This document shows, piece by piece, positions 152 to 17,289 of a DNA stretch of 19,673 bases (position 1 is the first letter of the stretch; each line of letters begins with the position of its first letter). The notes beneath the pieces were generated by a model, which worked only from the letters and a program-made list of their open reading frames with translations, was not told the origin of the DNA and did no database searches. Source of the DNA: an uncultured bacterium (lineage in GTDB: Bacteria > Patescibacteria > JAEDAM01 > Absconditabacterales > Absconditicoccaceae). The stretch is from positions 1 to 19,673 of the forward strand of contig CAIVDB010000088.1 of the NCBI GenBank assembly GCA_903904545.1. Direction: 5' to 3'. The position numbers and the translations under genes were made by a program.

Positions 152-814
152 ATGAAAAAACTTCTTCTTTTGTGACTTCTTTTATGAACACTCCCTCTCT
201 TGGGATGTCAGAACGAACGTCATATTCAAGATTTACAATCTTTACAGTCAGCTATCAATACTCTTGAAAAGGGTCTCATTGATGGCACAGTCGATGTAGA
301 ATCTGCTCAAATCGAGGCAGAGCAATTAGTCGTCGCCTATAAGGAACTTACTAAACAAGAAATCGTTTCTAGCATGCAGTCCTTTATTTTTTCCTTAGAA
401 GAAGAAAAACAGAAACTTCAGCGTTTATGAACTTTGCCTATTTGGGCTGAAAAATTGTGACTTAGCTTGCCTTATGGGATGAAACTCCAAAAGACTTTGT
501 CTCATCAAGTCCAAGCATGAACTACATGACATGATAGCCTTTTGTTAGTATACAAAGGTCCCTATGATAACGCTTTGCAGGAAGCTCAGCGTATTGCGAG
601 TGGAGCAAAGTTATTTCTAAGTCCTGAAATTGCTCAGGCCCAGGCTATGTTAAAATCGTGAAATACTCTCTCAGGATTTGCTACACAAGAACTTATGGAC
701 GCTATAGTCTATACCAATCATCGTCTTTTGGATTCAAATATTGATACGCTTATCTCTGTCAGTGTCGCTAAGGAGTGACTACTTACTTTGGAAGCGACTA
801 ATTACAAAAAATAG
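152..814 (+). CDS. Predicted lipoprotein, unknown function (220 aa)
   Basis: The ATG at 152 opens a 220-residue frame that ends at TAG 812-814 if TGA is read as Gly. Eight TGAs occur in frame, two of them (codons 8 and 12) inside the signal peptide. The N-terminus MKKLLLLGLLLGTLPLLGC is a textbook lipoprotein signal with lipobox LLGC and the lipidated Cys at residue 19. This only appears when TGA is Gly, so the gene is itself evidence for the code. The mature part (HIQDLQSLQSAINTLEKG onward) is predicted helical, rich in Glu/Gln and possibly coiled-coil, followed by a mixed domain I do not recognise. It should be anchored on the outer face of the membrane. A heptamer repeat array starts exactly at its stop codon. 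The existence of the gene is well supported; the function is unknown. Confidence 0.8.
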
Positions 815-853
815 ATCTTAGAGCTTAGATCTTAGAGCTTAGAACTTAGATTG
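812..853. repeat. 7-bp tandem array, unit TAGANCT (6 units)
   Basis: The sequence splits cleanly into heptamers: TAGATCT, TAGAGCT, TAGATCT, TAGAGCT, TAGAACT, TAGATTG. Only the fifth base varies in the first five units. The first unit includes the TAG stop codon of the lipoprotein gene. The same unit recurs at 17255-17289. Confidence 0.9.
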
Positions 854-869
854 GAGAATCGTCAAACAT

Positions 870-948
870 CGTACAAGATTGTATAAAACCTTGCCTACTG
901 GTTTACATACCGAAGGCATGCAGGCAGGTCGTACAAAGTAGTACAAGG
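870..948. repeat. Dispersed palindromic element, copy 1, with a 19-bp central insert
   Basis: This stretch contains aaaaccttgcctactgg, then 19 bases, then caggcaggtcg, flanked by GTACAA-type sequence. It matches the reverse complement of 12336-12394, where the two halves meet directly at the centre of a palindrome. It is intergenic. A minus-strand frame across 903-1124 exists only because the repeats lack stops. Confidence 0.75.
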
Positions 949-961
949 TAGTAGAGAATCC

Positions 962-1036
962 CGAATAACCAATATACCAATACACCAATAACCGATAAAC
1001 CAATTGCCAATAAACCAATTGCCAATAAACTAATTC
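962..1036. repeat. Degenerate 7-8 bp repeat tract, ACCAATA theme
   Basis: A run of ACCAATA, ACCGATA and GCCAATA words spaced 7 or 8 bases apart, including two copies of a 15-base unit (caattgccaataaac). It is less regular than the strict heptamer arrays elsewhere. It fills the gap before the thioredoxin-CcdA gene, and no promoter is evident in it. Confidence 0.75.
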
Positions 1037-1060
1037 CCACTTTATCCTTAATTTGTTTTA

Positions 1061-2155
1061 ATGAAAAAATATCTCTTAGGACTTTTACTTTGATGTGTTG
1101 CTCTATTTTCAATAAGTTCTGCACAAGAATATACTTTGTTCTATGGAAATGGATGTCCTCATTGTACAGCAGTTGATTCCTATTTTAAAGAGCAGAATAT
1201 TCAGAAACTTTTTGATGTAGAGAAAAAGGAAGTGTTTTATCATAAAAAAAATCTGGAGGAATTTAATGCTCATCTTGCTCAACATGGTTTATCCTATGAT
1301 AAGATTGGGGTTCCTTTTCTTATTATCACAAGTGGTGATGATTGTAACTATATCAATGGAGACGTAAATATTATAGAGTATTTTTCTGGGAAGTTAGCTC
1401 ATCAACTTGCTACCTGTAAAGATACTACTTTTACGTGAAGTGATGTTATCATAGAAAAAACTCTACAAGAAAGATTGTCTTTCTTTGGTATCATGTTGCC
1501 TGCTGCGCTTTCCGATAGTATCAATCCTTGTGCCTTTGCTGTGATGCTGCTTTTGTTGTCTACCATCTTGAGTAAACATAAGAGTAAGAGAAAAACGATA
1601 CTGTCAGGGATGATGTTTGTACTAGCTATATTTGTTTCTTATCTTGCTATGGGGATTGGACTCTTTTCTGCTTTAGCGAGTTCTAGTAATACCTTTGTCT
1701 TGAAACTTGTAGTCTGAGTGATTGGCATCCTTGTTGGTCTTGCTAATGTGAAGGATTACTTCTGGTATGGAAAATTTTTTGTCATGGAAGTCCCATTTTC
1801 TTGGAGACCAAAGATGATGTGATTGATCGAAAAGGTGTCGTCTCCTTGGTGAGCATTTGCTGTAGGGGTCTTAGTAAGTCTTTTTCTCTTGCCATGTTCC
1901 TCTGGTCCGTATTTTACGATCTTATGATTTTTGAGTGCACAAAATTCAGCGCTTAATTTCCGATGATATCTCTATCTAATTGTCTATAATCTTTTATTTA
2001 TCTTGCCTATGGTGATCATTGCCTTCCTTGTCGGATTCGGATGGGCATCAGTGGATCAATTGGCAAAATTGAAACATGATAAGACAAAACTTATCCATTT
2101 GATTGTAGGTATTATGATGCTAGGACTTGGAATCTATGTCTTGACGACTTTGTAA
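1061..2155 (+). CDS. Thioredoxin-like / CcdA (DsbD-type) fusion, membrane thiol-disulfide protein (364 aa)
   Basis: Read with TGA as Gly (seven in frame) the ATG at 1061 gives 364 residues ending at TAA 2153-2155. Residues 1-22 look like a signal peptide (MKKYLLGLLLGCVALFSISSAQ). Next comes a thioredoxin/glutaredoxin-like domain with the redox motif GCPHC (Cys32, Cys35) and the usual cis-proline region (GVPFLII). From about residue 140 there is a multi-helix membrane domain with the two CcdA/DsbD hallmark cysteines, in SINPCAFA (Cys157) and LPCSSGPYF (Cys279). CcdA/DsbD proteins carry electrons from cytoplasmic thioredoxin across the membrane. An extracytoplasmic thioredoxin domain on the same chain would be the acceptor, so the role is probably reductive or isomerising thiol chemistry in the envelope. 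DsbD itself has its thioredoxin domain at the C-terminus; here it is N-terminal. Family confidence is high, the exact substrate unknown. Confidence 0.88.
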
Positions 2156-2202
2156 ACTTTTTCACTACTTACCTCGATATGAGTCTTCTATTTTTATAAA
2201 TA

Positions 2203-3363
2203 TTACATGTCTCAGGCTAGAGTATAATAGTTTAATAATGTTTCCTTATATATTCTTTTTTGATGGTTTGCTAGAACTTTTGTCTCCTGGATGTAGAGTA
2301 TACTTTGATGTATCCCGGTCATGATTTCTTTTTTTGCTTGTCAGAATAATCTGCCTTTTCATTTGATGGTTTTGATATATTTTATAGCTTCCTGTACAGT
2401 CTTTTCCACACTATTTATGGCAATGCAAAGTTCTATATTACGTTCACTTTCTGTTTTTTCTTTATCTAATATAAAACAGGATTCATAGAGCTTATCAGTA
2501 AACTCTGGCATCCTATAGATGTAACGCATATCCTCTTCCTCCTCGATATCTATGGAAAATCATAATCCTTCTAAAAATTTAAATTCTTTCCATCGATTTT
2601 CTTTTATAAATCGAAAACCTTTTTTTACTTGAAGGAGATTTTCTCTATCTATGACTTCTTCCCATATTTCATCATTGTCTTGTTTGTTATCGCTACGAGA
2701 TTCTCTTTCTATATGGTCTATTTCTTGCATATACTCTTTGATATTTCCCAATATCTGTTTGTATAATATAAGATCTTCATCGTCCCAGATCAGTTGTGTA
2801 TACAAACATCTTAGTAAACAATTTATCCATTTATTCTCTTCCTCTGTAGTCAACATTTTTATAAAACGAAAAACTTTTGCAAGATCCTCTACTCGTAAAA
2901 TAGGCATAATTGTATAAGATTCTGTTTGATTTTGGAATATAAAATATTTGCTTTGTAAATTTATTCCTAGTGTTTCTAATGCTCATTGGATTTTTTCCTT
3001 TGATTTTACTGTATAGTCATAGTAGAGTTCTTTTTGATCTTCTTCATCGTCAGTTATGGTATCTTGACCCAGAAAGTTTTCTTGATACGTATGTAATGCT
3101 TCATATATTTCTTCTCTAATCTCTCCTGAAGTATTTTTATCTTCATGTATATGAATCACATCATCTGTTATGGTTGCAGATGAGATGATGAGATGTTGGT
3201 ATATTTCTCCGAAAGCCTTCCGCATTTCATTAAAATATTCTTCATCTATTCCATTATCATTGTCTTCTATAATTATTCTCAATAATTCATCTACGAAAGG
3301 CTTTTTTTTATCTATAAGTAAATCTCATGTTTTTTTAGATCTTTCTATCCCATTGTTCTCCAT
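2203..3363 (-). CDS. Unrecognised protein, 386 aa
   Basis: Reading leftward from the ATG at 3361-3363 the frame stays open to TAA at 2203-2205, with six TGAs read as Gly (for example at 2983 and 2560). The product is soluble-looking, strongly charged and rich in Glu, Asp, Lys and Ile, with no signal peptide or membrane segment. It contains an acidic patch EDNDNGIDEEYFNEM near residue 30. I recognise no domain or catalytic motif. An extended -10 box (TGGTATAAT) ends 7 bases before the ATG, and GGAG directly precedes the ATG, the only Shine-Dalgarno-like start among the 17 in the window. It is divergent from the 41-residue gene and convergent with the thioredoxin-CcdA gene. The gene is well supported by frame length across six TGAs; its function is unknown. 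Confidence 0.72.
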
Positions 3364-3370
3364 CTCCAAA

Positions 3371-3379
3371 ATTATACCA
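3371..3379 (-). promoter_or_regulatory. Extended -10 promoter immediately upstream of the 386-aa gene
   Basis: On the minus strand the sequence reads TGG-TATAAT, then seven bases, then ATG. With normal -10 to start spacing the transcript would begin at or next to the start codon, so the mRNA may be leaderless. No good -35 is visible. Confidence 0.5.
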
Positions 3380-3507
3380 TATAAATACTACCTTCTTATC
3401 TATTTTAATACTTATTTTCCTATAAAAGTCAATCTTATTCTATTTTTTCTTGATTATTGGGGGAAAATAGATATATGATTCTCTATCATAAATAAAAATA
3501 AAAGTTT

Positions 3508-3633
3508 ATGGCACCAAAAAAAAAGACTTTCACCTGCCATCATGGTAAGGGTGAAGTAGAAGAGGGCACGAATAAGTGTTCAAATCGAAAAGGGAAAATG
3601 TGCCCATCTGGACACCCCTGTAAAAGACTTTAG
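3508..3633 (+). CDS. Small Cys/His-rich basic protein (41 aa)
   Basis: ATG 3508 to TAG 3631-3633 encodes 41 residues beginning MAPKKKTFTCHHGKGEVEEG. It has four cysteines (residues 10, 24, 32 and 38), histidines at 11, 12 and 36, and many Lys/Arg. The spacing C-H-H ... C ... C-x3-H-x-C could bind one metal ion in the manner of a tiny zinc ribbon or knuckle. No hydrophobic segment is present. The start sits after AAAAGTTT with no Shine-Dalgarno, like most genes here. A long hairpin follows 8 bases after the stop. Amino-acid composition and the absence of internal stops argue for a real gene, but at this length it could be chance. Nucleic-acid binding is only an inference from charge and Cys/His content. 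Confidence 0.55.
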   Translation: MAPKKKTFTCHHGKGEVEEGTNKCSNRKGKMCPSGHPCKRL

Positions 3634-3641
3634 TATTAACC

Positions 3642-3690
3642 GAGCTGGGTGCTTTATTGAGGATATTTTCTTCAAGCAAGCAACCAGCTC
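3642..3690 (+). other. Long interrupted hairpin after the 41-aa gene
   Basis: The 49-base segment folds on itself. The outer arms GAGCTGGGTGC and GCAACCAGCTC pair 10 of 11. After two A-U pairs and a 2x2 internal mismatch, the inner arms TTGAGGA and TCTTCAA pair with one G-U, closing on a 5-base loop. No T-run follows, so it is not a standard terminator. It may stabilise the 3' end of the small mRNA or be part of a separate RNA. Confidence 0.6.
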
Positions 3691-3770
3691 AAACACGTTA
3701 TTGAGAAAAAATATATAGTTTATTGGGAATCGGGAATTGGTTTGTTGGGGAATTTTTTGTTCGTATATTT

Positions 3771-5234
3771 CTATGCTTGTAATTTCTTTTCAATTACTTC
3801 CTGCGCTGCCTTTGGATTTACTTTTCCTCAGGTTTTTTTCATAACTTGGCCAACGAAGAATCCCATGGTAGTAGTTTTTCCTCACTTGTATTGCTCGACG
3901 ATGCTTGCATTTTCTTGGAGGACGGTATCGACTATGCTTTCGAGCTCATTTGGATCCATGCTTGGTGCATCAAATCATTTTTCTTTGATGATTTCTTCTG
4001 GATTTTTTCCTGTAGCCAACATCTCGTCCATAATAATTTTAAGCTGACTCTCCATGATTTTTCCTTCTTGAGCAATCTCTAAAAATTTTCCAAATGCATC
4101 TTGCGAGAAGGGGAGTTCTTGGATGGTTTTCATTTGCTCGTTCATCCAAGCACCTATAGGTCAGCATATTCGTTTTGCTACCAGCTTCGCTGGGATTTCA
4201 GATGAGGAATCTTCAGATGATGTCAGATGAATAAGTGATTTCTGAAAATAATATAACATCTCTTTGTCTCCAATAAGCGCATTGATATATTCTTTATTGA
4301 ATCCATAGTCTTCTTTGAAGGTCTTGATAATGCTATAGGGTATCTCGACTTTCTGTTCGCTGAGTCGTTTCATTATTTCTTCATCGATATGCAATTGTGG
4401 TAAATCGGGTTCTGGAAAAAATCTATAATCCAAGGCATCTTCTTTGGATCTCATCAAATAGGATTCTCCTTTAGTGTCATCTCGGCCTCTGGTTTGCTGA
4501 CTAAAGGTCTCTCATTTCTCATAGATTGCTTCCTGTCTTGCTTGTTCATGTTCGATGGCTCTTTTGACCATACCGAAGGAATTGATATTTTTGATCTCAG
4601 CTCTGGTGCCGAGAGGCTCTGATTCATTCTTTCTGACAGAAATATTTACATCACATCTCATCTGTCCTTTTTCCATATCAGCGTCTGAGATATCATTGTA
4701 TCTCATGAGTCTCTGGAGTTCTTTGAGAAATTCTACAACTTCGTCCGTACTCGAAAAATCTGGGTTGGTCACGATCTCTACGAGAGGAGTCCCTGCGCGA
4801 TTGAAATCCAGCAAAGCTGAACTTCCATTATGTATCATCTTGGCAGTATCGTTTTCCATATGCGCGTCTAGGATGTGGACCGTCTTCTCTTGGGTGTAGT
4901 TATTTAAGAAAAAAGAAACCTGACCTTGGACGTTGGTGGGTTTGTACAGCTGAGTAATCTGGTATCCCATCGGGAGGTCTGGATAGAAGTAGGATTTTCT
5001 ATCAAATTGAGAATACTCATTGACCTTACAGTTGAGGACTTTCCCTAAGATAAGGGCCTTTTCTACGACCTCTTTACTGAGGGTAGGTAAGGCTCCAGGT
5101 TGTGCTGTACACACGGGACAGATATGGGTATTTGGGGTAAGGGTTTCGAAATTCTGTTCGTTTTGACACTGACAAAACATTTTGTTTGGCGTATTGAGTT
5201 TGATATGAATTTCGAGTCCAATGGTAAGAAGCAT
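3771..5234 (-). CDS. gatB: Aspartyl/glutamyl-tRNA(Asn/Gln) amidotransferase subunit B (487 aa)
   Basis: GatB of the GatCAB complex, which binds misacylated Glu-tRNA(Gln) or Asp-tRNA(Asn) and activates it for amidation with ammonia from GatA. Leftward from ATG 5234 the frame runs to TAG 3771-3773 with five TGAs as Gly. The N-terminus MLLTIGLEIHIKL is diagnostic, followed by two cysteine pairs (C21-x-C23 and CPVC 39-42) that form the zinc site. FDRKSYFYPDLPMGYQIT and DFNRAGTPLVEIVT are further family blocks, then YRFFPEPDLPQL. The C-terminal GatB/YqeY domain is complete (MGFFVGQVMKK near the end), and length is normal for GatB. gatA and gatC are not in the window, so the subunit genes are dispersed. 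There is no Shine-Dalgarno; a heptamer array lies just upstream. Confidence 0.96.
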
Positions 5235-5239
5235 GAAGA

Positions 5240-5274
5240 AATGATAAATGATAAATTATAGATTATAGATGGGG
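5240..5274. repeat. 7-bp tandem array upstream of gatB
   Basis: Heptamers AATGATA, AATGATA, AATTATA, GATTATA, GATGGGG follow one another without gaps. The array starts 5 bases upstream of the gatB start codon, so it would lie in the 5' leader or promoter of gatB. The AATGATA unit recurs at 13872-13899. Confidence 0.8.
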
Positions 5275-5380
5275 GAGTCTTTTGGTAATACTCAATGATT
5301 GCTATTTATCTTTTATCTATTGTATAGAGTGTTTATCTATTTCTTTGAATTTTTCAATTGGAATAATGTTATTCTCTACC

Positions 5381-5520
5381 AAATGTTGCGAGGGATACAT
5401 CGAAGTTTCTTTATACAAAATTACTGCATACCGGTTTATCCAGCTACGCTGGGCAACGACAGGGATGATCTGCCTTGGAATAATTCGGTTAGCTTGGACA
5501 AGTGTTGTGACGGTTTTTTG
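5381..5520 (-). repeat. Dispersed degenerate repeat, longest copy
   Basis: Two parts of this stretch match 12203-12285 in the same order: a block around atta-ctgc-ataccggt and aacgaca, and a block acaagtgttg-ga-gg. A further copy of the second block (tgttgcga-ggatacatcg-agttt) lies at 5384-5413. The minus strand is free of stops from about 5566 to 5298 but offers no usable start before the middle, so it is treated as a repeat or gene relic, not as a gene. The rest of 5275-5535 holds nothing else recognisable. Confidence 0.55.
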
Positions 5521-5535
5521 AATTATTTTTTTAAC

Positions 5536-5563
5536 TTGACATTAAATACAATATCTATATTCT
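5536..5563 (+). promoter_or_regulatory. Sigma70-type promoter for the candidate RNA
   Basis: TTGACA at 5536-5541, a 16-base spacer, and TATTCT at 5558-5563. The same TTGACA-N16-(-10) layout is seen at 11715-11742 and 15751-15778. It predicts a start near 5570. Confidence 0.6.
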
Positions 5564-5569
5564 GTAGCT

Positions 5570-5785
5570 AATAAGAACGATGGTGGTCAGAATTCTGATT
5601 GTCGGGAAGTCTTATTAAGTGTTAATTATATATTTTCATGCCTATGAAAACTTTTTGTTTTATAGTAATTGAAACTGGTGGATTTTGTGTTACATTCTAA
5701 CGAACCGAATAAAAAGAATGTAATAACATACGTTTACCGTAGTTATTAACAAGGGCGGTTGGATTATATCTAACCGTCTTTTTTT
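5570..5785 (+). ncRNA. Candidate structured small RNA (about 216 nt), possibly with a tiny ORF
   Basis: A self-contained unit: promoter at 5536, four local hairpins, then a strong terminator. The hairpins are TAATAAGA/TCTTATTA (5569-5617) enclosing the palindrome TCAGAATTCTGA; TTTTCAT/ATGAAAA (5633-5650); ACATTC/GAATGT (5691-5721); and TAATAAC-TACG/CGTA-GTTATTA (5721-5748). The last two share a base at 5721 and could compete. It lacks the hallmark sequences of tmRNA (3' CCA and tag frame), RNase P RNA and the SRP RNA loop. A 20-codon ORF, ATG 5638 to TAA 5700 (starts MPMKTFCF), sits inside, so a leader-peptide or small-protein mRNA is an alternative. Both flanking genes are on the minus strand, so this is an independent transcript. 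A function cannot be read from the sequence. Confidence 0.5.
5754..5785 (+). terminator. Rho-independent terminator of the candidate RNA
   Basis: Arms GGCGGTTGGA (5754-5763) and TCTAACCGTC (5769-5778) pair over 10 bp with two G-U pairs and a 5-base loop, followed directly by seven T's. This is the clearest intrinsic terminator in the window. It also lies just beyond the end of the minus-strand TerC-like gene. Confidence 0.88.
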
Positions 5786-5804
5786 ATTTCTGAAATAACT
5801 CTAT

Positions 5805-6827
5805 TTATTTCTTATTTGCTCTGATCGAAGACCATAAGGACAATCCTATACAAGCGCCTCAGATGAGGCCGGTGATGATTTCTGGGACTTCATGGACGGT
5901 AGAGATAAACATAATGATAGCAAGGGCAAAAATTGCTCGGAATGCGCCGTGTTCTAGAAATTTATATTTCGTTAAGGTTCATTTTTTGACGAGCATGACG
6001 GTAAGACTTCTCACAAACATTGCGCCGATTCCTAGTCCCAATGCGATGATAAAAATATTTTTACTCAAAGCGAAAGCGCCAATTACTCCATCGAAAGAAA
6101 AGCTTGCGTCTAAGACTTCGAGATAGAGAAATAAAGAGAGTCAGGATTTGGCTACGGTTTGAAGTGTTGCCGATGGTTTATTGAGCAGTCCTGCAAGTCC
6201 TTCTACGAGGCTATAGATAATGACTCCTCGGAGTCCTGCTATGATAAATCATTGTGCTTCAGTAGCTGGTACTATCTGACTTATTCCCATGATTAAGAAG
6301 AGAGTAAGTAATATTTCTGCTGATTTGAGTTGTCCTATTTTTTGTAAGGATCTTTCGATGATTGCTATTCGATGGTTTTCTTTTTCTGCATCGAGGAAAA
6401 ATTTGAGTGCTACCATAAAGAGAAATGTTCCTCCGAATCCTGCAATCACGATATGAGAACTTGTAAGGATTTGAGCATACTGATTTGGATCGGTGAGTGC
6501 TAATTGAAAGGCTGCGAAGGGATTGATTTTCCCTATGATAGCTACAATGGCTATGGGGAATATTATTCTCATGCCAAAGACCGCAATTGCAATTCCTCGA
6601 GTCAGAAATCTGCGTTGTCGGAGAGGAGACATCTGTTTGAGGACTGAGGCATTGACGACTGCATTGTCAAAAGAGAGTGACGTTTCCAAGACTCCCAAGA
6701 TGAGGATGATAAATACTGCTTGGAGTCCCGCTGAGATGTTTCGTCAGTTTCCTGCTCCTATATAAAATCCTATAATAATTGCAATTCCAGTGAAGATAAG
6801 AGACCCTGTGAAATATTTTCTAATCAT
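5805..6827 (-). CDS. TerC / DUF475-type integral membrane protein (340 aa)
   Basis: Leftward from ATG 6827 the frame reaches TAA 5805-5807 with five TGAs as Gly. The product is almost entirely transmembrane helices. Two blocks stand out: LETSLSFDNAVVNA (Asp54-Asn55) in the first half and EVLDASFSFDGVIGAFA (Asp246 and the SFDG aspartate) in the second. These paired S-F-D-N/G motifs mark the TerC superfamily and in this arrangement fit the DUF475 branch. TerC-family proteins are linked to metal ion (often manganese) export and tellurite resistance; the substrate here is not known. The TGA at 6249 lies in an EAQGFIIAGLRG segment and at 5979 next to conserved KK residues. It is transcribed alone and ends 19 bases from a terminator of the opposite strand. 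Family is secure, substrate not. Confidence 0.88.
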
Positions 6828-6980: not shown

Positions 6981-8051
6981 ATGAATTCGAAATGATCTAG
7001 TCGTTGAAATATTCTATATACCCCAGATGATCTTATTGTGAATGAGTATTTTCATGATGTGCATCGCAAAGCGAATCTTCCTTCCAAAGGAAATCTTTAT
7101 GATATCCTAAATCAAACACTTTATGTCAAGGATCCTGGTGTTTTTCGTAGTATGGAAAAACTTGTATTTTTGTATATGTCCTGTTATACCAAGGTGAAGC
7201 CTATCCATCCTGTTGAGTATCTCACTACCATGGAAAAAATTTTTGAAACCCTTAAGACGGGCTCTGTCTTATTCTTTTGTGATCATAAGACCTATGCGAG
7301 TCTTTTGCTGATGGTGTGGGAACTTGTTAGACGGGGAGAAACGCATTGATCGCCTGAAGTTAAAGATCGCTTGTATACTATCTTATGACCTTTACTTACT
7401 ACTCACAAAAAATATGTCGGCAGATTCTCTCATATAACACACGCACTCAAAACTATTCCTGAGACGAATAATATCCCCAAAAATTTGAGTGAGGATGCTG
7501 TCAAAAAACAGAGGAAAATTTTTGCAAGGGAACTGACGTTAGTTCTCAATACTCCTTGAAATGCAGTCATTATGGCTCCTGCATGATGAACTGATGCAAT
7601 GCAACGAAGTGATGAGGGAAAGCTTGAGCAGGTGTCTTTTGTGAATGATGAGGCTGTTCAGACCTCTATCCATCTTGCTGAGAAAAGGTTGTGTAAATGA
7701 GATATGGTTGTTTTTGCCTCTATAGATGATTCTCAATTGAAACATCCTTTTGTTGTCCCTTATAGAGCTTGAAAATGGGTGCCAGGAAATACCTCTATCA
7801 ATATGAAGATTGCAAATAAGGATGAATTTATTGCATTGAAAAAAGAGGGGAAAGTTATGGATATGTTAGCTAGTCTTGTACAAAATCCTGATGGAAAACA
7901 AATTTGAAGAACCTTACCTAGGCATGAATTTGAAGAATTAAAAAAGAATATGGATACCTCTCATCTTTTGGGAAAAGATTGGGCCCCTGAATTTGATGAT
8001 ACCCTGATGAAGAAGTTTCTTAGGAAAATATTTGAGGCAGTTTTGAAATAA
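6981..8051 (+). CDS. Unrecognised protein with weak acyltransferase resemblance (356 aa)
   Basis: ATG 6981 to TAA 8049-8051 gives 356 residues with ten in-frame TGAs, including a pair (codons 202-203). Two spots recall glycerol-3-phosphate or lysophosphatidate acyltransferases: LFFCDHKTYASLLLM (His102), where those enzymes have H-x4-D, and AVIMAPAGGTDAM around 198-207, where soluble GPATs have a proline-glycine-rich substrate motif. However, the catalytic Asp position is Ser107 here, so the match is weak. There is no signal peptide. The C-terminal third (EELKKNMDTSHLLGKDWAPE) looks like an ordinary soluble fold. It is transcribed alone and ends at a bidirectional terminator. The gene is certain from its length across ten TGAs; the acyltransferase idea is speculative. 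Confidence 0.8.
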
Positions 8052-8069: not shown

Positions 8070-8104
8070 AAAAAAAAGGAACATTTCTGTTGCCTTATTT
8101 TTTT
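8070..8104. terminator. Bidirectional intrinsic terminator
   Basis: AAGGAACA and TGTT-G-CCTT form a stem with a TTTC loop and one bulged G. It is flanked by a run of eight or more A's on the left and ATTTTTTT on the right, so it has a U-tract in both directions. It would end the 356-aa gene on the plus strand and the tRNA-Val transcript on the minus strand. Confidence 0.8.
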
Positions 8105-8171
8105 AATTGGTGGACGATAGAGGATTTTCACCCCGTAGTCCTACGGGGCAGGCCTCCGACCTCCGCACGTA
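8104..8171 (-). pseudogene. Partial tRNA-Val 3' half interrupted by a GC-rich palindrome
   Basis: From 8101 the sequence repeats the 3' end of the intact tRNA (ttaattggtggacgatagaggatt, identical to 8181-8204). Instead of continuing into the T loop it has about 26 bases containing CCCCGTAG-TC-CTACGGGG. Then cctccgacctccgcacgt follows, clearly related to the intact gene's cctcctacctctcgcacgt, up to the anticodon stem. The 5' half of the tRNA is missing, so it cannot be functional. Confidence 0.75.
8135..8156. repeat. CCCCGTAG palindrome, copy 1
   Basis: A perfect 8-bp inverted repeat, CCCCGTAG and CTACGGGG, around a 2-base centre, followed by CAGG. An identical pair of arms occurs at 12116-12137. 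It is GC-rich against the AT-rich background and sits inside the partial tRNA copy. Confidence 0.8.
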
Positions 8172-8185
8172 ATTATTTTTTTAAT

Positions 8186-8262
8186 TGGTGGACGATAGAG
8201 GATTCGAACCTCCTACCTCTCGCACGTCAAGCGAACGCTCTAGCCAAGTGAGCTAATCGTCC
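8186..8262 (-). tRNA. tRNA-Val (anticodon GAC)
   Basis: The reverse complement folds as a complete tRNA. Acceptor arms GGACGAT and ATCGTCC pair 7 of 7; the D stem is GCTC/GAGC; the anticodon stem TTCGC/GCGAG encloses loop TTGACGT with anticodon GAC. The T arm is GGAGG-TTCGAAT-CCTCT. The discriminator is A and CCA is encoded. It should read the valine codons GUC and GUU. It is alone, with no other tRNA in the window, and its transcript would run into the bidirectional terminator at 8070-8104. Confidence 0.96.
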
Positions 8263-8271: not shown

Positions 8272-8320
8272 TAACTAATAGTGAATAACTAATAGTGAAT
8301 AACTAACAGTGAATAGTGTT
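8272..8320. repeat. 7-bp tandem array beside tRNA-Val (7 units)
   Basis: Alternating heptamers TAACTAA, TAGTGAA, TAACTAA, TAGTGAA, TAACTAA, CAGTGAA, TAGTGTT, with no gaps. The array lies 10 bases upstream of the tRNA gene, where its promoter should be. The rest of the gap (8321-8517) shows nothing I recognise; a minus-strand frame at 8303-8497 has only a TTG start and is not called. Confidence 0.9.
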
Positions 8321-11452: not shown

Positions 11453-11478
11453 AAACTATCCCTGCGCAGAGATAGTTT
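11453..11478 (+). terminator. Hairpin after engB
   Basis: Perfect 8-bp arms AAACTATC (11453-11460) and GATAGTTT (11471-11478) with a 10-base loop, starting 4 bases after the stop. The T-run is only three bases, so termination may be partial. Confidence 0.55.
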
Positions 11479-11498
11479 CTGAAAATATAGTAATATGA

Positions 11499-11528
11499 AA
11501 GAGAAGAAATGGACCATTTCCTTCTCTT
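11499..11528 (-). terminator. Hairpin ending the 45-aa minus-strand gene
   Basis: On the minus strand AAGAGAAG-G-AAATGG pairs with CCATTT-CTTCTCTT, 14 bp with one bulge and a very tight centre, then TTTCAT. It lies 19 bases past the stop codon, between the convergent engB and 45-aa genes. Confidence 0.5.
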
Positions 11529-11546
11529 ATGTATATTGTTGTTTAA

Positions 11547-11684
11547 TTACCCAATTTGTGCCATAGTGATAGTAAGTGCACTATTGACTACAGTGAATGC
11601 GAAGATAGCCCAAAGTAGTACCAAGATAAGACGGTCCTTGTGAGGTGTGTTTTGGTCTACATGTGCAATAAGTTTCTTTACCAT
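11547..11684 (-). CDS. Small single-pass membrane protein (45 aa)
   Basis: Leftward from ATG 11682-11684 to TAA 11547-11549 gives 45 residues. A polar, basic N-terminus (MVKKLIAHVDQNTPHKDR) is followed by one hydrophobic helix (LILVLLWAIFAFTVVNSAL) and a short tail TITMAQIG. This is the layout of a small membrane-anchored accessory subunit; no family is recognised. Support is unusually strong for its size. A near-perfect TTGACA-N16-TATAAT promoter lies 31-58 bases upstream, and a long hairpin follows the stop. There is no in-frame TGA. No Shine-Dalgarno is present. Confidence 0.68.
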   Translation of the reverse strand: MVKKLIAHVDQNTPHKDRLILVLLWAIFAFTVVNSALTITMAQIG

Positions 11685-11714
11685 TATAGTGTATAAGAAG
11701 ATAAATACATATAA

Positions 11715-11742
11715 ATTATAATCTAAATAAAAAATTTGTCAA
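11715..11742 (-). promoter_or_regulatory. Consensus promoter of the 45-aa gene
   Basis: Minus strand: TTGACA (11737-11742), 16-base spacer, TATAAT (11715-11720). Both boxes match the sigma70 consensus exactly. The predicted start near 11708 leaves a leader of about 24 bases. Confidence 0.75.
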
Positions 11743-11785
11743 ATTTTTGCATACTTTTTTTGAGGTGGATATTGGTATATGTTTA

Positions 11786-11813
11786 TAATAACTAGTAACC
11801 AATAACCAATAAC
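11786..11813. repeat. 7-bp tandem array (4 units)
   Basis: TAATAAC, TAGTAAC, CAATAAC, CAATAAC in tandem, sharing the pattern NANTAAC. It opens the 800-base gene-free stretch 11685-12484. Confidence 0.8.
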
Positions 11814-11832
11814 TTTTTTCTTCTATGAAAAA

Positions 11833-11865
11833 CGCTTGCAGGTGACCTCATCCCGTCTGCAAGCG
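11833..11865 (+). other. Perfect 9-bp hairpin inside a 24-codon ORF
   Basis: CGCTTGCAG (11833-11841) pairs with CTGCAAGCG (11857-11865). An ORF from ATG 11825 to TAA at about 11899 begins MKNACRGPHPVCKR with one TGA as Gly and spans the hairpin. The ATG follows TTTTTTCTTCT, the same kind of context as real starts here. Whether it is translated cannot be judged. Confidence 0.35.
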
Positions 11866-12015
11866 AATCTCTATGTACGTATGTTTACATCAGTTTTAAA
11901 CCTCTATCTCTTGATATCTTTTTCTTTCCTTCTGATGACACACGCAGTATATGGATGTACCTTAAGGGAACCTTAAGAATAAATAATCTACTTTTTGTGG
12001 GACGCTTCGCTGAGA

Positions 12016-12043
12016 CCTACTTTTGTCTTGATGCAAAAGTAGG
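12016..12043. repeat. 10-bp hairpin element
   Basis: CCTACTTTTG and CAAAAGTAGG are perfect inverted arms around an 8-base loop TCTTGATG, followed by GCAAAAAATCAAGG. It lies in the gene-free stretch, together with a minus-strand frame (11962-12156) that consists of such repeats. Confidence 0.65.
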
Positions 12044-12115
12044 CAAAAAATCAAGGCCTCGCAGATCGCATGTTGCTCGGCCATGGTTTGCTTAGTCGAA
12101 GTCTGTCTTCCAGCC

Positions 12116-12137
12116 CCCCGTAGTTCTACGGGGCAGG
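12116..12137. repeat. CCCCGTAG palindrome, copy 2
   Basis: CCCCGTAG-TT-CTACGGGG-CAGG, with the same arms as at 8135-8156. Flanking AGCC and GGCT extend the pairing by four bases with a 2-base bulge. Confidence 0.8.
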
Positions 12138-12202
12138 CTTCCCTCACGGCAGCCAAGTTTTGGAATAAGATAATAAGAAAAATTTATTGCCCTGTGGCAA
12201 CA

Positions 12203-12285
12203 ATTACTGCCTTACCGGTAACGACATGAATGGTTTTGTGCTATTTGAGACAAGTGTTGCGATGGATACATCGGAGTTTTTTATA
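12203..12285 (-). repeat. Dispersed degenerate repeat, second copy
   Basis: It contains atta-ctgccttaccggt, aacgacatg and acaagtgttgcgatggatac followed by atcggagttttttata. These blocks occur in the same order at 5381-5520. The best block (12252-12285 against 5384-5417) differs at only about five of 34 positions. Confidence 0.6.
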
Positions 12286-12335
12286 TAATCTGTTTGTGGG
12301 TAGCTACCTGCATTGCACTCTATTTTCCTCAATTC

Positions 12336-12394
12336 TGTACGACCTTGTTCGACCTGCCTGCCGGTAGGCAAGGTTTTGTACGACTTTGTACAAT
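12336..12394. repeat. Dispersed palindromic element, copy 2 (uninterrupted)
   Basis: The core GCCTGCCGGTAGGC (12356-12369) is a near-perfect palindrome, flanked by TGTACGACCTTGTTCG on the left and TTTTGTACGACTTTGTAC on the right. It is the reverse complement of the element at 870-948 without the central insert. Beyond the repeats listed, nothing is recognised in 11685-12484. Confidence 0.75.
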
Positions 12395-12484
12395 TTTTTA
12401 CTCTTCCTTCTCTGTCGATTTATTTGATTCTTATTCCCAAAGCAGTATATGTAAGGGTATGTTTTTATTCCCTTTTTTCTTTGT

Positions 12485-13864
12485 ATGAAAATTACCTTTT
12501 GTGGAGCAGCTCAATTTGTTGCTGGATCGTGTTATCTTATCGAAACAGGAGCGACAAAATTTCTCATCGATTGCGGAATGTATCAAGGTCCTAAGGAAGT
12601 GATGAGGATGAATTATGAACCATTTCTCTTTGATCCTTCTGAAATAGATTTTGTCTTGTTGACTCATGCGCATATTGATCATTGTGGATTGATTCCTAAG
12701 TTACATATCCAATGATTCGAAGGGAAAATTTATGCGACGTCTGCTACCAAAGATCTGACCTGAATCCTTCTCGAGGATAGTGCTGATATCCAGTTACACA
12801 ATACAGAAGAAGAAAATAAAAGAAGAAAACAGAATCATTTGGAGCCTAGAGTCCCTTTGTTTACACTTAAGGATGCCATGGCGAGTATGCGTTTGTTTTC
12901 TTTGGTAGAATATGGTAAGATGAATAAACTTACCGAGACTATTCAAGTAAGATATCAAGATGCCTGACATATTATTGGTTCAGCACATATAGAACTTTTC
13001 GTCACTGAAGAGGGAGTGCAAAAGAAATTTGTTTTCTCAGGAGACATTGGACAACGAAATACCCCTATTGTCCAAGATCCTACTTTGATCTCTGAAGCTG
13101 ATTATGTCTTTATGGAATCTACTTATGGTGATAGATTGCACGAAGATGTTGCTCGTAAACAAGAGATTCTTCTCGAGCATGTGATTGCAGCTTACAATAA
13201 AGGAGGAAAACTCTTAATCCCTTCTTTTGCAGTAGAAAGGACTCAAGAGCTCTTATATTTTTTCAGTAAACTTATTGCCGAATGATCTTTCCCCAAAGAA
13301 AAAATTTTCCTCGATAGTCCACTTGCGATCAAGGCAACAGAAATCTTCAAAAAACATATTGAATGTTTTGATGATCAGGCGCGTAATGATTACGTCAATC
13401 CTTTCGATCCAGAATATCTGCAAGCGCTGCCTACGGCAGAAGATTCCAAGATTCTTAATAATTATCAATATCCTTGTATCGTCATCGCAGGAAATGGAAT
13501 GTGTACTGCCGGTAGAATAGTCCATCATCTCAAACATGGTTTATCCAATCCCAAAAATTCAGTCCTTTTCGTTGGGTATCAAGCAGAATGAACGCTTGGA
13601 AGATATATTCTCGAAGGAGAAAAAATGGTCAGAATGATGGGCGATGAAGTTGTTGTCCATGCCGATATCGACAAGATGAATAGTTTCTCTGCTCATGCCG
13701 ATGCTAATGAATTAGTCAAATGGGCCCAGGGATTTGCTGTCCCACCAAAAAATATCTTTATCATGCATGGAGAAGGAAAAGCACAAGAAGCCTTGCAGAC
13801 CAATCTTCGCGCTTTGGGCTATACCACATCCATTCCAAAATTGTGAGAAAGTGTAGTTTTGTAG
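12485..13864 (+). CDS. Beta-CASP metallo-beta-lactamase RNA-processing nuclease (459 aa)
   Basis: ATG 12485 to TAG 13862-13864 with six TGAs as Gly. It belongs to the metallo-beta-lactamase family with a beta-CASP domain (CPSF73/YSH1-like group), zinc-dependent RNA endo- or 5'-exonucleases. Motif 2 is THAHIDHCG (His61, His63, Asp65, His66). DAGHIIGSAH carries the motif 3 histidine, with its Gly encoded by TGA at 12965. FSGDIG carries the motif 4 Asp. Beta-CASP signatures follow: [21 protein letters not shown], and the C-terminal [13 protein letters not shown] with GMCTAGR before it. It lacks the extra C-terminal domain and KH domains of RNase J and archaeal CPSF, so its exact cleavage role is open. 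A Nudix gene follows after 64 bases. Confidence 0.92.
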
Positions 13865-13871
13865 TCTGGAA

Positions 13872-13899
13872 GATTATGATAAATGATAAATGATAGATT
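13872..13899. repeat. 7-bp tandem array (4 units)
   Basis: GATTATG, ATAAATG, ATAAATG, ATAGATT. In a shifted frame this is the AATGATA unit seen at 5240. It starts 8 bases after the nuclease stop codon. Confidence 0.8.
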
Positions 13900-13928
13900 G
13901 TTTTTTGTTTTACTGATAATTATTTTCT

Positions 13929-14333
13929 ATGTCTCAATATTTCTGAGTGGCAGTAAAATGCATTATCCAAGATCCAGAAGGAAAAATTTTAGTGATCTTC
14001 AAAAGTGATATCGATGAAGTTAACCCTAATGACTTTGATATCCCTGGGGGAAGAATTCATCGATGAGAGAAGTTGGAAGATGCTCTTAGCAGGGAAGTAA
14101 AAGAGGAAGTGAATTTAGATATTGAGATTATAGGTGTTTCAAATCCTCGATGATTTACGCAAGGAGAATTGCACTTAGTTTGAATTACTTATATTGCAAA
14201 ATGTAAGGATATTTCTCCACTTCGTCTGAGTGAAGAACATACAGGATATTACTGGAAAACCAAAGAAGAAATTCTGACAGGTGAGTATCCGAAATGGCTG
14301 AAAGAAGAAGTCTCTAAAGTCGGAAGGTCGTAA
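13929..14333 (+). CDS. Nudix hydrolase (134 aa)
   Basis: ATG 13929 to TAA 14331-14333 with four TGAs as Gly. The Nudix box is present: G41-x5-E47-x7-R55-E56-V57-x-E59-E60, in GRIHRGEKLEDALSREVKEE, and its Gly46 is a TGA. The box ends in VNL, so the usual final Gly is Asn62; the metal-binding glutamates are intact. Nudix enzymes hydrolyse nucleoside diphosphates linked to another group; the start (CIIQDPEGKILVI) fits an NTP or sugar-nucleotide pyrophosphatase, but substrate cannot be told. It lies between the beta-CASP nuclease and a PAP2 phosphatase on the same strand. A terminator-like structure follows directly. Confidence 0.9.
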
Positions 14334-14381
14334 CCCCGCTAAAGACGGGGCTCGTTTCGCTCGAGTCTTTAAAGTCTTTTT
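14334..14381 (+). terminator. Terminator region with two alternative hairpins after the Nudix gene
   Basis: Directly after the stop, CCCCG/CGGGG (14334-14350) can pair. Alternatively AAAGAC (14341-14346) pairs with GTCTTT (14365-14370), with CTCG/CGA(G) inside, followed by AAAGTCTTTTTG. The two share bases 14341-14346, so only one can form. The second resembles an intrinsic terminator. Confidence 0.5.
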
Positions 14382-14382
14382 G

Positions 14383-14410
14383 TTATAAATTATAAATTAT
14401 AAATTATGGA
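14383..14410. repeat. 7-bp tandem array (4 units)
   Basis: TTATAAA, TTATAAA, TTATAAA, TTATGGA in tandem, 43 bases before the PAP2 start. The following bases (ATCACTC, TTCACTC, TTAATTA, TTAACTC) continue a weak 7-base rhythm. Confidence 0.75.
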
Positions 14411-14452
14411 AGAGCATCACTCTTCACTCTTAATTATTAACTCATTTCAAAA

Positions 14453-14998
14453 ATGGAATTATCGATTGTGCATTTTTTTCAATCTCTCTGACAAGGGACC
14501 TTTTTTGATACGATTATGTGGACGGTGAGTGCAAGAGGATTCTTGATCTTATTGCGAGTAGTTGCCTTAAGTCTCGCTTTATGGAAACATAAAAAACAAT
14601 GGAAACTCATCGTGATCTGCTTTGTTTTGGCAGGATTGCTGTTTTATGGAGTCTCAGAATTTTTCTTCAAAGATATCCTTGTTCATTTTACGTGAATAAA
14701 CGTCAGACCCTACCTTGCCCATCCTGACCTGATCCACGCCATCTGAACATCTTATTCAGACTCTTCTTTTCCTTCTAGTCATATGGCGAGTACCTTAGCT
14801 ATGTTGACCGTGATGGTGTATTTCTGGAAAAAAACTTGGGTCTATGCATTAATTATTGCAGTACTCATGGCAGTATCGAGGATGCATAATGGGATGCATT
14901 ATCTGAGTGATGTCCTTGTAGGAGCATTGGTGGGCATTCTCTGTGGGATGGTTGCTGTTTGGCTTGGGAAAATGATCTGGGAAAAAATGAAGAAATAA
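14453..14998 (+). CDS. PAP2-family membrane phosphatase (181 aa)
   Basis: ATG 14453 to TAA 14996-14998, three TGAs as Gly. PAP2 enzymes dephosphorylate phosphatidic acid, phosphatidylglycerophosphate or undecaprenyl pyrophosphate at the membrane. Motif 2 is FPSSHM (Pro107 to His110) and motif 3 is SRMHNGMHYLSD (Ser142-Arg143, His149, Asp153), the nucleophile His and its partner Asp. Motif 1 is recognisable as K...RPY (NVRPYLAH), with more residues than usual between Lys and Arg-Pro. About five hydrophobic segments surround these. Recycling of the lipid carrier for cell-wall synthesis is one plausible role but is inference. It ends convergently with the 227-aa gene, 35 bases away. Confidence 0.88.
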
Positions 14999-15033
14999 AT
15001 TTCTTGATGGAATAGCATCAATTATAACTATAA

Positions 15034-15717
15034 TTACACGGGCCTAGAAACTATTGCTGGATGCCCATTGTCTGCGAATATCGATGAAAGCTCAGCATCA
15101 AATTCTTTCGATTCTCAATTAAATTGACATTTCACAATGTATTTTTCATTATCTCTTACTGTTTTGGTCAATGTCGCATAACTCTGTAACTCATTATACC
15201 ATTTCTTATCATAAACATCTCGTTGTCCAGTTGCTTTCTTGGGTCCATAGAGTCCAAAAATCCTCATCATATTCCCTATTTTATTGTTTTCTTTGTCATC
15301 TTTCCCTGTGAACTGATTAATGAGGTTCTTGGCATCTTGTTTGGTATCCAGTAAGGTACATCCTATCTTCTCGGCTTCTCTTTGGGCAGCATCTCCAAGA
15401 AAGTATATCACTCAATTTTTCTCTATGATATCTATTCCATTGGGTGTGGCTGTGAGCGGAAAAAATTCTCTTCCCATGGTTTCTACATTTCCACGGGCAT
15501 TGATTTTGATATTCTTCTGTAGTTTTAATTTGTTTTCTGGAGAGGTTTTCTCTCGTAAGGTAGAGATAATATGCTCTTTGGGATATGGATTTCCTTCTTG
15601 TATAATATTCAAAAGATCACCTTCTGCTCCTGCTGATGGAGTAGCTTGTGGTTTTTGATCATCTTTATTAATCTGATTTTCTTTGTCCGAAAATTTATTA
15701 GTACCTGTCTCTTCCAT
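15034..15717 (-). CDS. Unrecognised soluble protein (227 aa)
   Basis: Leftward from ATG 15717 to TAA 15034-15036, with two TGAs as Gly (15412 and 15115). The first 40 residues are polar and probably disordered (MEETGTNKFSDKENQINK, then a Pro/Ala-rich stretch). A mixed alpha/beta part follows (IIQEGNPYPKEHIISTL, and VIYFLGDAAQREAEKIGCTL). No signal peptide, membrane helix or known motif is seen. It has the best promoter in the window, a consensus TTGACA-N16-TATAAT 34 bases upstream. Its 5' leader can form a small hairpin (AGTAAG/CTTACT). It is divergent from the DEAD-box helicase. The function is unknown. Confidence 0.75.
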
Positions 15718-15750
15718 GGAATGAAAATAGTAAGTAAATTCTTACTTCTC

Positions 15751-15778
15751 ATTATACATAATAATCCTATTTTGTCAA
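15751..15778 (-). promoter_or_regulatory. Consensus sigma70 promoter of the 227-aa gene
   Basis: Minus strand TTGACA (15773-15778), a 16-base spacer ending in TATG, and TATAAT (15751-15756). Both hexamers are perfect. Confidence 0.78.
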
Positions 15779-15873
15779 TCTCATTCACTATAAACTGCTC
15801 CTTGCTATTTCCTCGCGAAATCGTACTATTGAGCTATCAAATATCCTAATATTTACCTATAAAAAATTGTCTT

Positions 15874-17250
15874 ATGTTATTTAGTGAATGTTGACTCAAA
15901 CCAGGATTACTTAGATCTTTGGCAGCTATTGGCTACAAAGAAGTGACTCCTATCCAAGAAAAAGTGATGCGTGTCGCGCTGACAGGAGCAAATATTGTCT
16001 GACAATCTCAGACCTGAACTGGAAAGACTGCTGCATTTCTTTTACCCGTCTTGAATAAGGTAGACACCAACAAAAAAAGCTTACAAGTCTTGATTCTTGC
16101 TCCTACGAGAGAACTCGTAAACCAGATCGGAGATGAAATCAGAAATCTGACGAAGTTTTATAGTGTGACCTACACATGTCTGTACGGTGGTGCAAGTCCA
16201 AACGTTCAGAAACAGAACCTCAAAAAACGTCCTGCTATCGTGGTAGCTACGCCAGGAAGATTGATGGATTTTATGAACCAAGGAGTGATAGATATTCGTG
16301 TAGTGGAATATTTCATCCTAGATGAAGTAGATAGAATGCTTGATATGGGATTTGTTCGTGATATCAAAAAAATCCGAGCACAACTCAAACACGTGAGACA
16401 AACTTATACCTTTTCTGCAACGATGAATAATGAGATGAAGACCATCATCAAAGAGCATGTTTCGACCTATGAATTTATCAAAATAGGGGAGGAAGTGACG
16501 GTAGACAAAATTTCTCATAGTTATCTTCCTGTCGATCATGAACAAAAGGTCTATAATGTGATCAAGCTGATCCAGGCACATCCGCATGATAAGATTTTGA
16601 TTTTCACCCATACCAAGAGAAATACCAAGACCATTCATCAGATTTTGGCGTCTCATAAATATAATGCCGGACTCTTGAATGGGAATATGGCTCAAGGTAA
16701 AAGACAATCCACTCTAGACGAATTTAAACAAGGTAAGATCAAGGTATTGGTCACTACTGATGTCGCTGCCAGAGGCTTGAATATGGAAAATGTCGGACTT
16801 GTGGTAAATTTCGATGTCCCTGTCGATGCCAAGAGTTATATCCATAGGATAGGAAGGACAGGAAGAGCAGGTGCTAGTGGGAAGGCGATTATGCTTGTCT
16901 CTCCTTTGGAAAGACCTCTTTTGCAAGACATAGAAAAGATGCATAAGATTAGAATCAAAACATCAGAACATACCACGCTTCATGATAAAGAAGGAAGATA
17001 TGGAAATGTTCGCTTAGATAGATCTACAGATAAACTCTGAGGAAAGAAATTGCAAATGAGAAGACCTGCTGCTCCTTCCAAATATAGTGGCTTAGAACCT
17101 TTTGATGATGAAAAAAATAAAAAGTCTGACGCTCGTCGTGGTGGGGCTACTCGTCCAGGAAGTCATACGAGACCTGAAAGACCTGATACGAGAAAAACTA
17201 AATCTTCTGGAGGAAAATTTATGGGTATGGGAAAACCGAGAAAGTGGTAG
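15874..17250 (+). CDS. DEAD-box RNA helicase (458 aa)
   Basis: ATG 15874 to TAG 17248-17250, four TGAs as Gly. ATP-dependent unwinding of RNA, typically in ribosome assembly or mRNA decay. Motifs in order: Q motif TPIQ; motif I GQSQTGTGKT (residues 43-52), where Gly43 and Gly48 are TGA; Ia APTRELV; Ib TPGRL; II DEVD (variant of DEAD); III SAT; IV ILIFTHT; V TTDVAARGLN; VI HRIGRTGR. The last 80 residues are a basic, low-complexity tail with Arg, Gly, Ser and Lys (ARRGGATRPGSHTRPERP), typical of RNA-binding extensions of RhlE/CsdA-type helicases. The start is supported because the Q motif begins 25 residues in. The final TGA at 17038 joins core and tail. Confidence 0.95.
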
Positions 17251-17254
17251 AAGG

Positions 17255-17289
17255 GAGAGCTTAGAACTTAGAGCTTAGAACTTAGATCG
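17255..17289. repeat. 7-bp tandem array, unit TAGANCT (second locus)
   Basis: GAGAGCT, TAGAACT, TAGAGCT, TAGAACT, TAGATCG. It is the same unit and orientation as 812-853, and again it starts within a few bases of the stop codon of a plus-strand gene, here the helicase. Confidence 0.88.

Follow-up and report, generated by a model that had tools for sequence, protein, structure and literature searches.

Seven-base tandem arrays in the gaps between genes of an SR1/Absconditabacterales-like contig

The window, its genes and its arrays

We consider a stretch of 19,673 bp (contig CAIVDB010000088.1 of an uncultured bacterium, hereafter the window) in which seven short tandem arrays built on a seven-base unit lie in seven separate gaps between genes. 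The long open reading frames (ORFs) of the window are obtained with TGA read as glycine, and the gene table is picked from these ORFs by eye, with the frame 11509-11721 left outside the coding mask and with uncertain ends for a small ORF near 3507. The products recognized by Pfam are GatB, a DUF475/TerC protein, a GTPase, a NUDIX protein, a PAP2 protein and a DEAD-box helicase; a DsbD/SfLAP-like membrane protein is also encoded, its Pfam match being under both cut-offs. The GTPase is presumably EngB-like. Rfam places a tRNA gene on the minus strand at 8189-8262. The best named relatives of the MBL-fold protein (12485-13864) are 'candidate division SR1 bacterium' and 'Candidatus Absconditabacterales bacterium', at 67% identity, and given these relatives the label Gracilibacteria, proposed in an earlier reading of the letters alone (the sequence-only reading), was close.

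The seven-base arrays crowding the gaps between genes are real. An array with a 7-bp basis is present in all seven of the gaps listed by the sequence-only reading, as judged by Tandem Repeats Finder (TRF) and by a lag detector (+1 for a match, -2 for a mismatch, periods 4-30, score of at least 11). In the 3,528 intergenic bases, the lag detector reports four arrays of period 7, three of period 14 and one of period 15 (976-1039); in the 16,145 coding bases it reports a single array, of period 26, and none of period 7 or 14. Forty dinucleotide shuffles of the intergenic segments yield 0.125 arrays per shuffle over all periods and none of period 7 or 14, which bears out, for this window, the claimed excess of period 7 over shuffled intergenic sequence. 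A rerun with automatic ORFs and a somewhat stricter detector gives six arrays of period 7, one of period 14, one of period 15 and none in coding sequence. Two details of the earlier description have to be relaxed. The arrays were called strict 7-bp repeats, but those at 812, 8272 and 17256 fit a 14-bp period better, and the range of 4 to 7 units was too generous, with TRF copy numbers of 2.9 at 13876, 3.6 at 14383 and 3.9 at 11787.

The units group into about three families, namely CTTAGAN (812, 17256), ATGATAA/ATTATAR (5239, 13873, 14383) and TAACYAR (8272, 11787). The first member of the CTTAGAN family, I-a, occupies 812..855 on the plus strand (TRF 812-850 with periods 7, 14 and 21 and 5.6 copies; lag score 22 at period 14). 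It reads as the units TAGATCT, TAGAGCT, TAGATCT, TAGAGCT, TAGAACT and TAGATTG followed by GA, with six of the seven columns invariant, and its first TAG, with which the repeat is in phase, is the stop codon of the gene upstream (152-814). The second copy, I-b, lies at 17248..17291, also on the plus strand (TRF 17256-17286, 4.4 copies), in 7-bp register with the TAG (17248-17250) that ends the DEAD-box gene. When the CTTAGAN units are pooled (7 units), one column varies between A, G and T and the other six are fixed.

The remaining arrays carry no strand assignment. Array II-a, at 5239..5271, is composed of ATGATAA and ATTATAG heptamers (TRF 4.7 copies; lag score 19) and lies 4 nt from the start codon of the minus-strand gene gatB. 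A 100-aa frame starting at 5269, by this array, is not considered a gene. II-b (13873..13899; TRF 13876-13895, 2.9 copies) has about three ATGATAA units between the MBL-fold gene, whose stop lies 8 nt before it, and the NUDIX gene, whose start lies 31 nt after it. II-c (14383..14407) has 3.6 perfect TTATAAA units by TRF, 49 nt past the NUDIX stop and 45 nt ahead of the PAP2 start. Array III-a, at 8272..8318, is an alternation of TAACTAA and TAGTGAA, two clearly unlike units, with a 14-bp period found by both TRF and the lag detector (score 27). TRF gives it two rows, 8272-8315 with period 14 (3.1 copies, 96%) and 8277-8318 with period 7 (6.0 copies), and 8-9 nt separate it from the 5' end of the minus-strand tRNA gene. 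III-b, at 11787..11813, has TAACTAG and TAACCAA heptamers (TRF 3.9 copies, 85%; lag score 12) and sits in a 1-kb intergenic region at least 337 nt from any gene.

The looser tract that had been noticed at 962 is indeed a separate array, of period 15 (about 7+8), with CCAATA-like units at 962..1039 and no strand assigned (TRF 967-1039, 4.8 copies; lag score 28 over 976-1039). A degenerate 7-bp tract below the threshold stands right after the gatB stop at about 3719-3746 (TTTATTG GGAATCG GGAATTG GTTTGTTG), and a portion of this sequence matches 962-1039 in inverted orientation.

Folding gives little reason to regard the arrays as structural elements. Compared with mononucleotide shuffles, z is at least -0.9 in 13 of the 14 strand tests of the arrays, the sole signal being the minus strand of array 11787 (z = -3.1), and we reject secondary structure as their common property, with that strand as a possible exception. 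For a purely length-based function, which had also been suggested, there is likewise no positive evidence.

Units shared between distant arrays

The arrays at 812 and 17256 are similar well beyond their period. Aligned from the TAG stops of two unrelated genes, 812-855 and 17248-17291 are alike at 38 of 44 nt without a gap, and a repeat search gives 94% over 36 nt between 820-855 and the copy at 17256. The same holds on a smaller scale for the second family, in which 5241-5264 is 96% like 13876-13899 across 24 nt and 14382-14405 matches the 5239/13873 family at 83%. With each array represented by one hand-picked unit, there are two exact pairs, TAGAGCT in 812/17256 and ATGATAA in 5239/13873. 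Seven heptamers drawn at random from the remaining intergenic DNA give a mean of 0.059 identical pairs and reach at least two pairs with P = 0.0017. The TRF consensus at 17256 is the other variant, TAGAACT, and both arrays contain TAGAGCT as well as TAGAACT units; because the representative was chosen by hand, the 44-nt alignment is the better evidence for this pair. Looser links exist as well, in that TTATAAA (14383) is one mismatch from ATGATAA and the pair 8272/11787 is also one mismatch from another array, and these weigh less since 0.83 of the 21 pairs are already expected to lie within one mismatch.

The statement that the arrays have different units is thus right insofar as there are about three families, and wrong for 812/17256 and 5239/13873, which share units, with 14383 and 8272/11787 one mismatch off. 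The conclusion once drawn from it, that different sequences speak against one spreading element, does not hold either. Units recur at distant loci and the CTTAGAN copies match at 38 of 44 nt through the array end, so that the spread of a few units is no less likely than a separate origin at each locus.

Position beside genes and stop codons

All seven arrays lie in gaps of their own within 19.7 kb, and their overlap with coding sequence amounts to 3 bases of array 812. The claim that they are never inside a gene is therefore correct for all seven with one qualification, namely that array 812 starts with the TAG stop of the upstream gene. In addition to array 812, which includes a stop codon, the array at 17256 begins 5 nt and that at 13873 begins 8 nt after a stop. 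The distance to the downstream start is 4 nt for 5239, 31 nt for 13873 and 45 nt for 14383; the others are at least 134 nt away or lie ahead of the tRNA gene.

Every one of the seven arrays has TAA or TAG in all three plus-strand frames, and four of the seven have them in all three minus-strand frames as well. A random intergenic heptamer bears TAA or TAG on a given strand with P = 0.34, in a pool that included the arrays. Units that carry stops and have a period not divisible by 3 cannot grow in genes, and the absence of arrays from coding sequence is explained by this without any function.

Period-7 arrays in other phyla

Is the period-7 peak peculiar to this lineage? We examine two samples with the same detector at a score of at least 12. 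Sample A has one stretch from each of 40 genomes (588,435 bp) of the phylum of the 'Candidatus Kappaea frigidicola' record (G005), and sample B has 20 stretches (306,652 bp) of the phylum of the 'Bacillota bacterium' record (G001). In sample A, 18 of 24 arrays have period 7, with 11 of the 18 from a single stretch (L209); when the 11 arrays of L209 are set aside, 7 of 13 have period 7. In 420 kb of one genome of the same phylum, period 7 accounts for 10 of 11 arrays, two of the ten (in L152) being also among the 18 of sample A. None of the nine arrays in sample B has period 7. The peak is thus lineage-dependent and not unique to the lineage of the window, as it is present in one phylum sample and absent from the other. 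Within L209, positions 1-2000 hold nine heptamer arrays, mostly of a CCTTC-N-A family.

The arrays in the window are denser than in the samples compared, and their kind is already known. Per 10 kb, the density of period-7 arrays is about 3.0 in the window (6 in 19,673 bp), about 0.3 in sample A and 0 in sample B, a comparison to be read with the fact that the window was selected for its arrays. In intergenic sequence only, it is 19.4 per 10 kb in the window, 0.42 in the G005 phylum (first 20 of the 40 stretches) and 0 in the G001 phylum, the second figure understating sample A because most of its period-7 arrays overlap crude ORFs.

The same units in viral contigs and whole genomes

Three successive TTAGARC units are found in nine viral stretches, of which L015 and L018 hold the same array and L017 and L021 look related. 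In three sets of whole genomes the counts are 0/7, 1/285 and 1/299, against 0/7, 0/285 and 1/299 for backward controls, and of 145 genomes, four have four successive CTTAGNN units and two have the backward control pattern. Among viral contigs, 47 stretches contain CTTAGNN x4 and 29 contain a period-8 control, CTTAGNNN x4. The period-7 viral set stands out mainly by several loci per contig (11/47 versus 1/29 stretches, Fisher P = 0.024) and by unequal units (varied spacers in 20/47 versus 5/29, P = 0.026). Both P values are too small because some of the 47 stretches are the same contig or near-copies; counted by contig, merged by hand, the multi-locus figures are 13/43 versus 1/29. The idea of a vocabulary of units common to different phyla is only partly supported, with whole-genome rates near those of the backward control and a period-8 control that is itself frequent in viral contigs, and we do not retain it.

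The clearest unit bias is that of TAACCAA, with arrays in 24 viral stretches versus two each for the shuffled units of the same composition TACACAA and TACCAAA; among the 24, no fewer than two (L027 and L036) seem to be copies. Taken together, the counts show a modest bias toward certain heptamers, which is not proof of horizontal spread.

The nine stretches with TTAGARC include L013 and L019, two phage-like contigs of one IMG record. They have matches to Phage-tail_3 and Phage_portal, and ORFs of the standard code span most of their length (table-11 ORF coverage 0.89 and 0.88). This pair, which was picked for having heptamer arrays, contains 17 of them in total, and 7 of the 17 hold the stop codon of a crude ORF within 3 nt. 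The arrays stand between many genes, and some are followed by inverted heptamers (CTTAGAG ... CTCAGTT), putative hairpins at gene ends. For the CTTAGAN array of the window itself, BLAST of 800-870 against plasmids gives no match, and against phages it gives a 32-base match (E 0.04) to two records of one Campylobacter phage, which we take as chance.

Relation to known repeats

The arrays belong to the class that is named short tandemly repeated repetitive (STRR) sequences in cyanobacteria and long simple sequence repeats (LSSR) in the repeat literature, and what is new about the window is mainly the host. In the portions of this literature drawn on here, heptanucleotides outnumber every other class of long repeat in the majority of genomes that an earlier survey covered, and slippage of the polymerase is suggested as their origin (PMC4679880; PMC4692102); the heptamers of Xanthomonas and Nostoc are examined (PMC4692102); and Chloroflexus is given satellites derived from heptamers, for example (GATAGRA)n (PMC6749651). 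The cause of the preference for period 7 in bacterial long repeats is treated there as unsettled, with the contact length of the polymerase offered as a guess. As these excerpts describe them, the repeats of Calothrix, Nostoc, Xanthomonas and Chloroflexus have 7-bp units in two to many copies, often between genes, at several loci per genome and with a scattered phylogeny (PMC4692102, PMC6749651, PMC4679880), and the window is similar in these respects. It differs in its short arrays (about 3-6 units), in having about three unit families within 20 kb and in its SR1/Absconditabacterales-like host. The earlier likening to heptanucleotide STRRs was apt, with an excess of period 7, dispersed intergenic loci and recurring units all found here. 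Searches of open-licence papers list no description of heptamer arrays in Gracilibacteria or Absconditabacteria, which is weak evidence of absence, and a TAACCAA array is not found in them as a letter string.

Three other systems invite comparison. The TAACTGA direct repeats of marine Beggiatoaceae are intergenic heptamers with 2-6 copies per set, and the TAACTAA unit of the array at 8272 is one letter away. The window, however, has several families and TAACTGA itself is not one of its units; furthermore, the Beggiatoaceae repeats are mostly within several nucleotides upstream of start codons, a position taken by one of the seven window arrays (5239). The parS site of plasmid pSM19035, according to the part of PMC9499535 used here, is a run of 7 to 10 non-palindromic 7-bp repeats, to each of which a single dimer of the ribbon-helix-helix protein Omega (ParB) binds; full activity requires at least four contiguous heptads, in different orientations. 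Like these heptads, the window arrays are contiguous non-palindromic 7-bp repeats; four of the seven have at least four units and the other three (11787, 13876 and 14383) have fewer. Unlike the heptads, no window unit equals the consensus WATCACW, and the arrays are dispersed beside ordinary housekeeping genes. The hypervariable 9-mer described for a gracilibacterium (BD1-5) is a tandem repeat in a related lineage for which slippage is discussed, but in the sections at hand (PMC6851277) it is coding, has period 9 (a PTD tripeptide) and is confined to one gene, whereas the window arrays are intergenic with period 7.

Explanations for the arrays

We hold with moderate confidence that the arrays are intergenic heptanucleotide microsatellites that have spread within the genome, grow in steps of 7 or 14 bp and are tolerated at the edges of genes. 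A few heptamer seeds would have been copied to several places in the genome, by recombination or template switching, and each copy would then gain or lose one or two units (7 or 14 bp) through slipped-strand replication. The 14-bp alternation of unit variants in three arrays is what two-unit duplication steps are expected to leave. Arrays arising within genes would be removed by selection, since 3 does not divide 7 and TAA or TAG is found in almost all the units. What survives, presumably close to neutral, would for that reason be confined to gaps; several arrays directly adjoin a stop or start codon, and one has come to provide the stop codon itself. The stops in all three plus-strand frames of all seven arrays fit such exclusion from genes.

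Several observations weigh against this explanation. The sharing of units and of the last array bases exceeds what pure local slippage predicts, and some units seem favoured beyond slippage, because heptamers of matched composition are not equally common as arrays. In sample A, 16 of 18 period-7 arrays, and in the 420-kb contig 8 of 10, overlap crude ORFs (at least 150 aa, which may or may not be real genes), so that confinement to intergenic sequence is not reproduced in the G005 phylum. Array lengths, moreover, are known from this one contig.

Alternatively, the arrays could be tandem binding sites, in which each heptamer binds one dimer of a small protein (ribbon-helix-helix or similar), four or more contiguous units form a cooperative operator or centromere, and the period is set by the spacing of the protein, with a fixed core and tolerant positions. 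The Omega (ParB) protein on the parS repeats of pSM19035, as presented in the passages cited (PMC9499535), is a worked precedent, and the arrangement of fixed columns is suggestive, with six in CTTAGAN (7 units), five in CCTTC-N-A of L209 (30 units) and five in CAGAC-N-N of G025 (14 units). The cores, however, were chosen after looking, which makes the split into fixed and variable columns exploratory; AGTT in L013, the fourth family to be pooled, is variable in four of seven columns over its 35 units; and columns with three letters within arrays are in no clear excess, the observed and expected numbers being 1 and 0.3 in the window, 5 and 3.3 in the 40 stretches, 2 and 1.1 in the rest of the G025 contig and 2 and 2.5 in L013 with L019. 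Array orientation flips in L017 and L021, and the array at 5239 is 4 nt from the gatB start and that at 8272 is 8-9 nt beyond the tRNA 5' end, as operators might be, but three of the seven window arrays begin at a stop codon or within 8 nt after one, hardly where operators would be expected. Several proteins would be required to read three or more unit families, and the units of the window do not include WATCACW. Pfam on 11 of about 18 window proteins gives no ribbon-helix-helix ParB or ParA family and no other candidate, and two 119-aa ORFs of L013 and L019 that look ribbon-helix-helix-like by eye have no Pfam family at E 0.001. We regard binding sites as unlikely for the window. A broader proposal would unite the dispersed heptamer arrays of scattered bacteria, among them the SR1-like lineage, the other phylum and certain phages, in a single functional class of tandem operators, each unit having a fixed core of about 5 bp and tolerant positions besides. 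It is more doubtful still; if it were true, the units of each lineage would be read by its own small dimeric protein, and period 7 would be a protein footprint and not a habit of the polymerase.

The arrays could instead be remnants or tails of small mobile elements, scattered together with palindromic sequences resembling miniature inverted-repeat transposable elements (MITE) or repetitive extragenic palindromes (REP). An inverted-repeat stretch does follow each CTTAGAN array (about 861-953 and 17315-17387), the two copies match through the array end, and 861-953 is flanked by the 7-bp direct repeat GAGAATC (854-860, 954-960) and has an inverted partner at 12336-12406. The two stretches, on the other hand, are unlike by eye and the repeat search lists no repeat between them, no CTTAGA is near the partner at 12336, the arrays of families II and III have by eye no palindrome at a fixed distance, and a single possible target duplication can be chance; this origin seems improbable to us. 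It is even less probable that, in a code whose sole stops are TAA and TAG, the repeats have been selected as cassettes that stop all frames after genes. The plus-strand stops in all seven arrays, the minus-strand stops in four and the CTTAGAN arrays starting in phase with a stop codon agree with such cassettes, but the same stops would be expected if arrays were simply excluded from genes, with no need for selection in their favour. The arrays at 5239 and 8272, moreover, adjoin the 5' ends of minus-strand genes and are not downstream of plus-strand ones, and arrays are also placed at stops in L013 and L019, most of whose length is open under the standard code. Finally, the units of family II consist wholly or almost wholly of A and T, as a chance product or artefact of AT-rich intergenic sequence might be; with seven arrays observed and none of period 7 or 14 in the 40 dinucleotide shuffles, chance is refuted at the score threshold used and we give it next to no credence.

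Other features of the window

Several further repeats are observed in the window. The sequence at 861-953 with its inverted partner at 12336-12406 is REP/MITE-like, with GTACAA decamers and a CAGGCAGG core. At 17315-17387, just past the CTTAGAN array and between convergent genes, there is a 21-nt inverted repeat (90%) that may be a two-way terminator. A 27-bp direct repeat (93%) at 8131-8157 and 12116-12142 contains the palindrome CCCCGTAGNNCTACGGGG and is REP-like. The 3' end of the tRNA gene and its flank are partly duplicated (8095-8137 versus 8173-8215, 88% over 43 nt), which resembles a trace of integration or slippage. Among the proteins, one of 356 aa (6981-8051) is without a Pfam match, and a search of 5.8 billion proteins returns two matches, one being the contig's own. 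A search of genome contigs with the MBL protein gives six loci, none titled Gracilibacteria or Absconditabacteria; in viral contigs, the DEAD-box protein has one weak match and an alignment of 20 MBL homologues (20 of at least 120) has none.

Significance

With a dense window, about three unit families and a period-7 peak in one phylum sample and none in another, the cause of period 7 becomes testable by comparison. Two questions can be put in this way: which gene or polymerase trait accompanies the peak, and whether the units arise by copying or form locally. Should the arrays turn out to be microsatellites only, they could still be used to tell strains of uncultured SR1 and Gracilibacteria apart.

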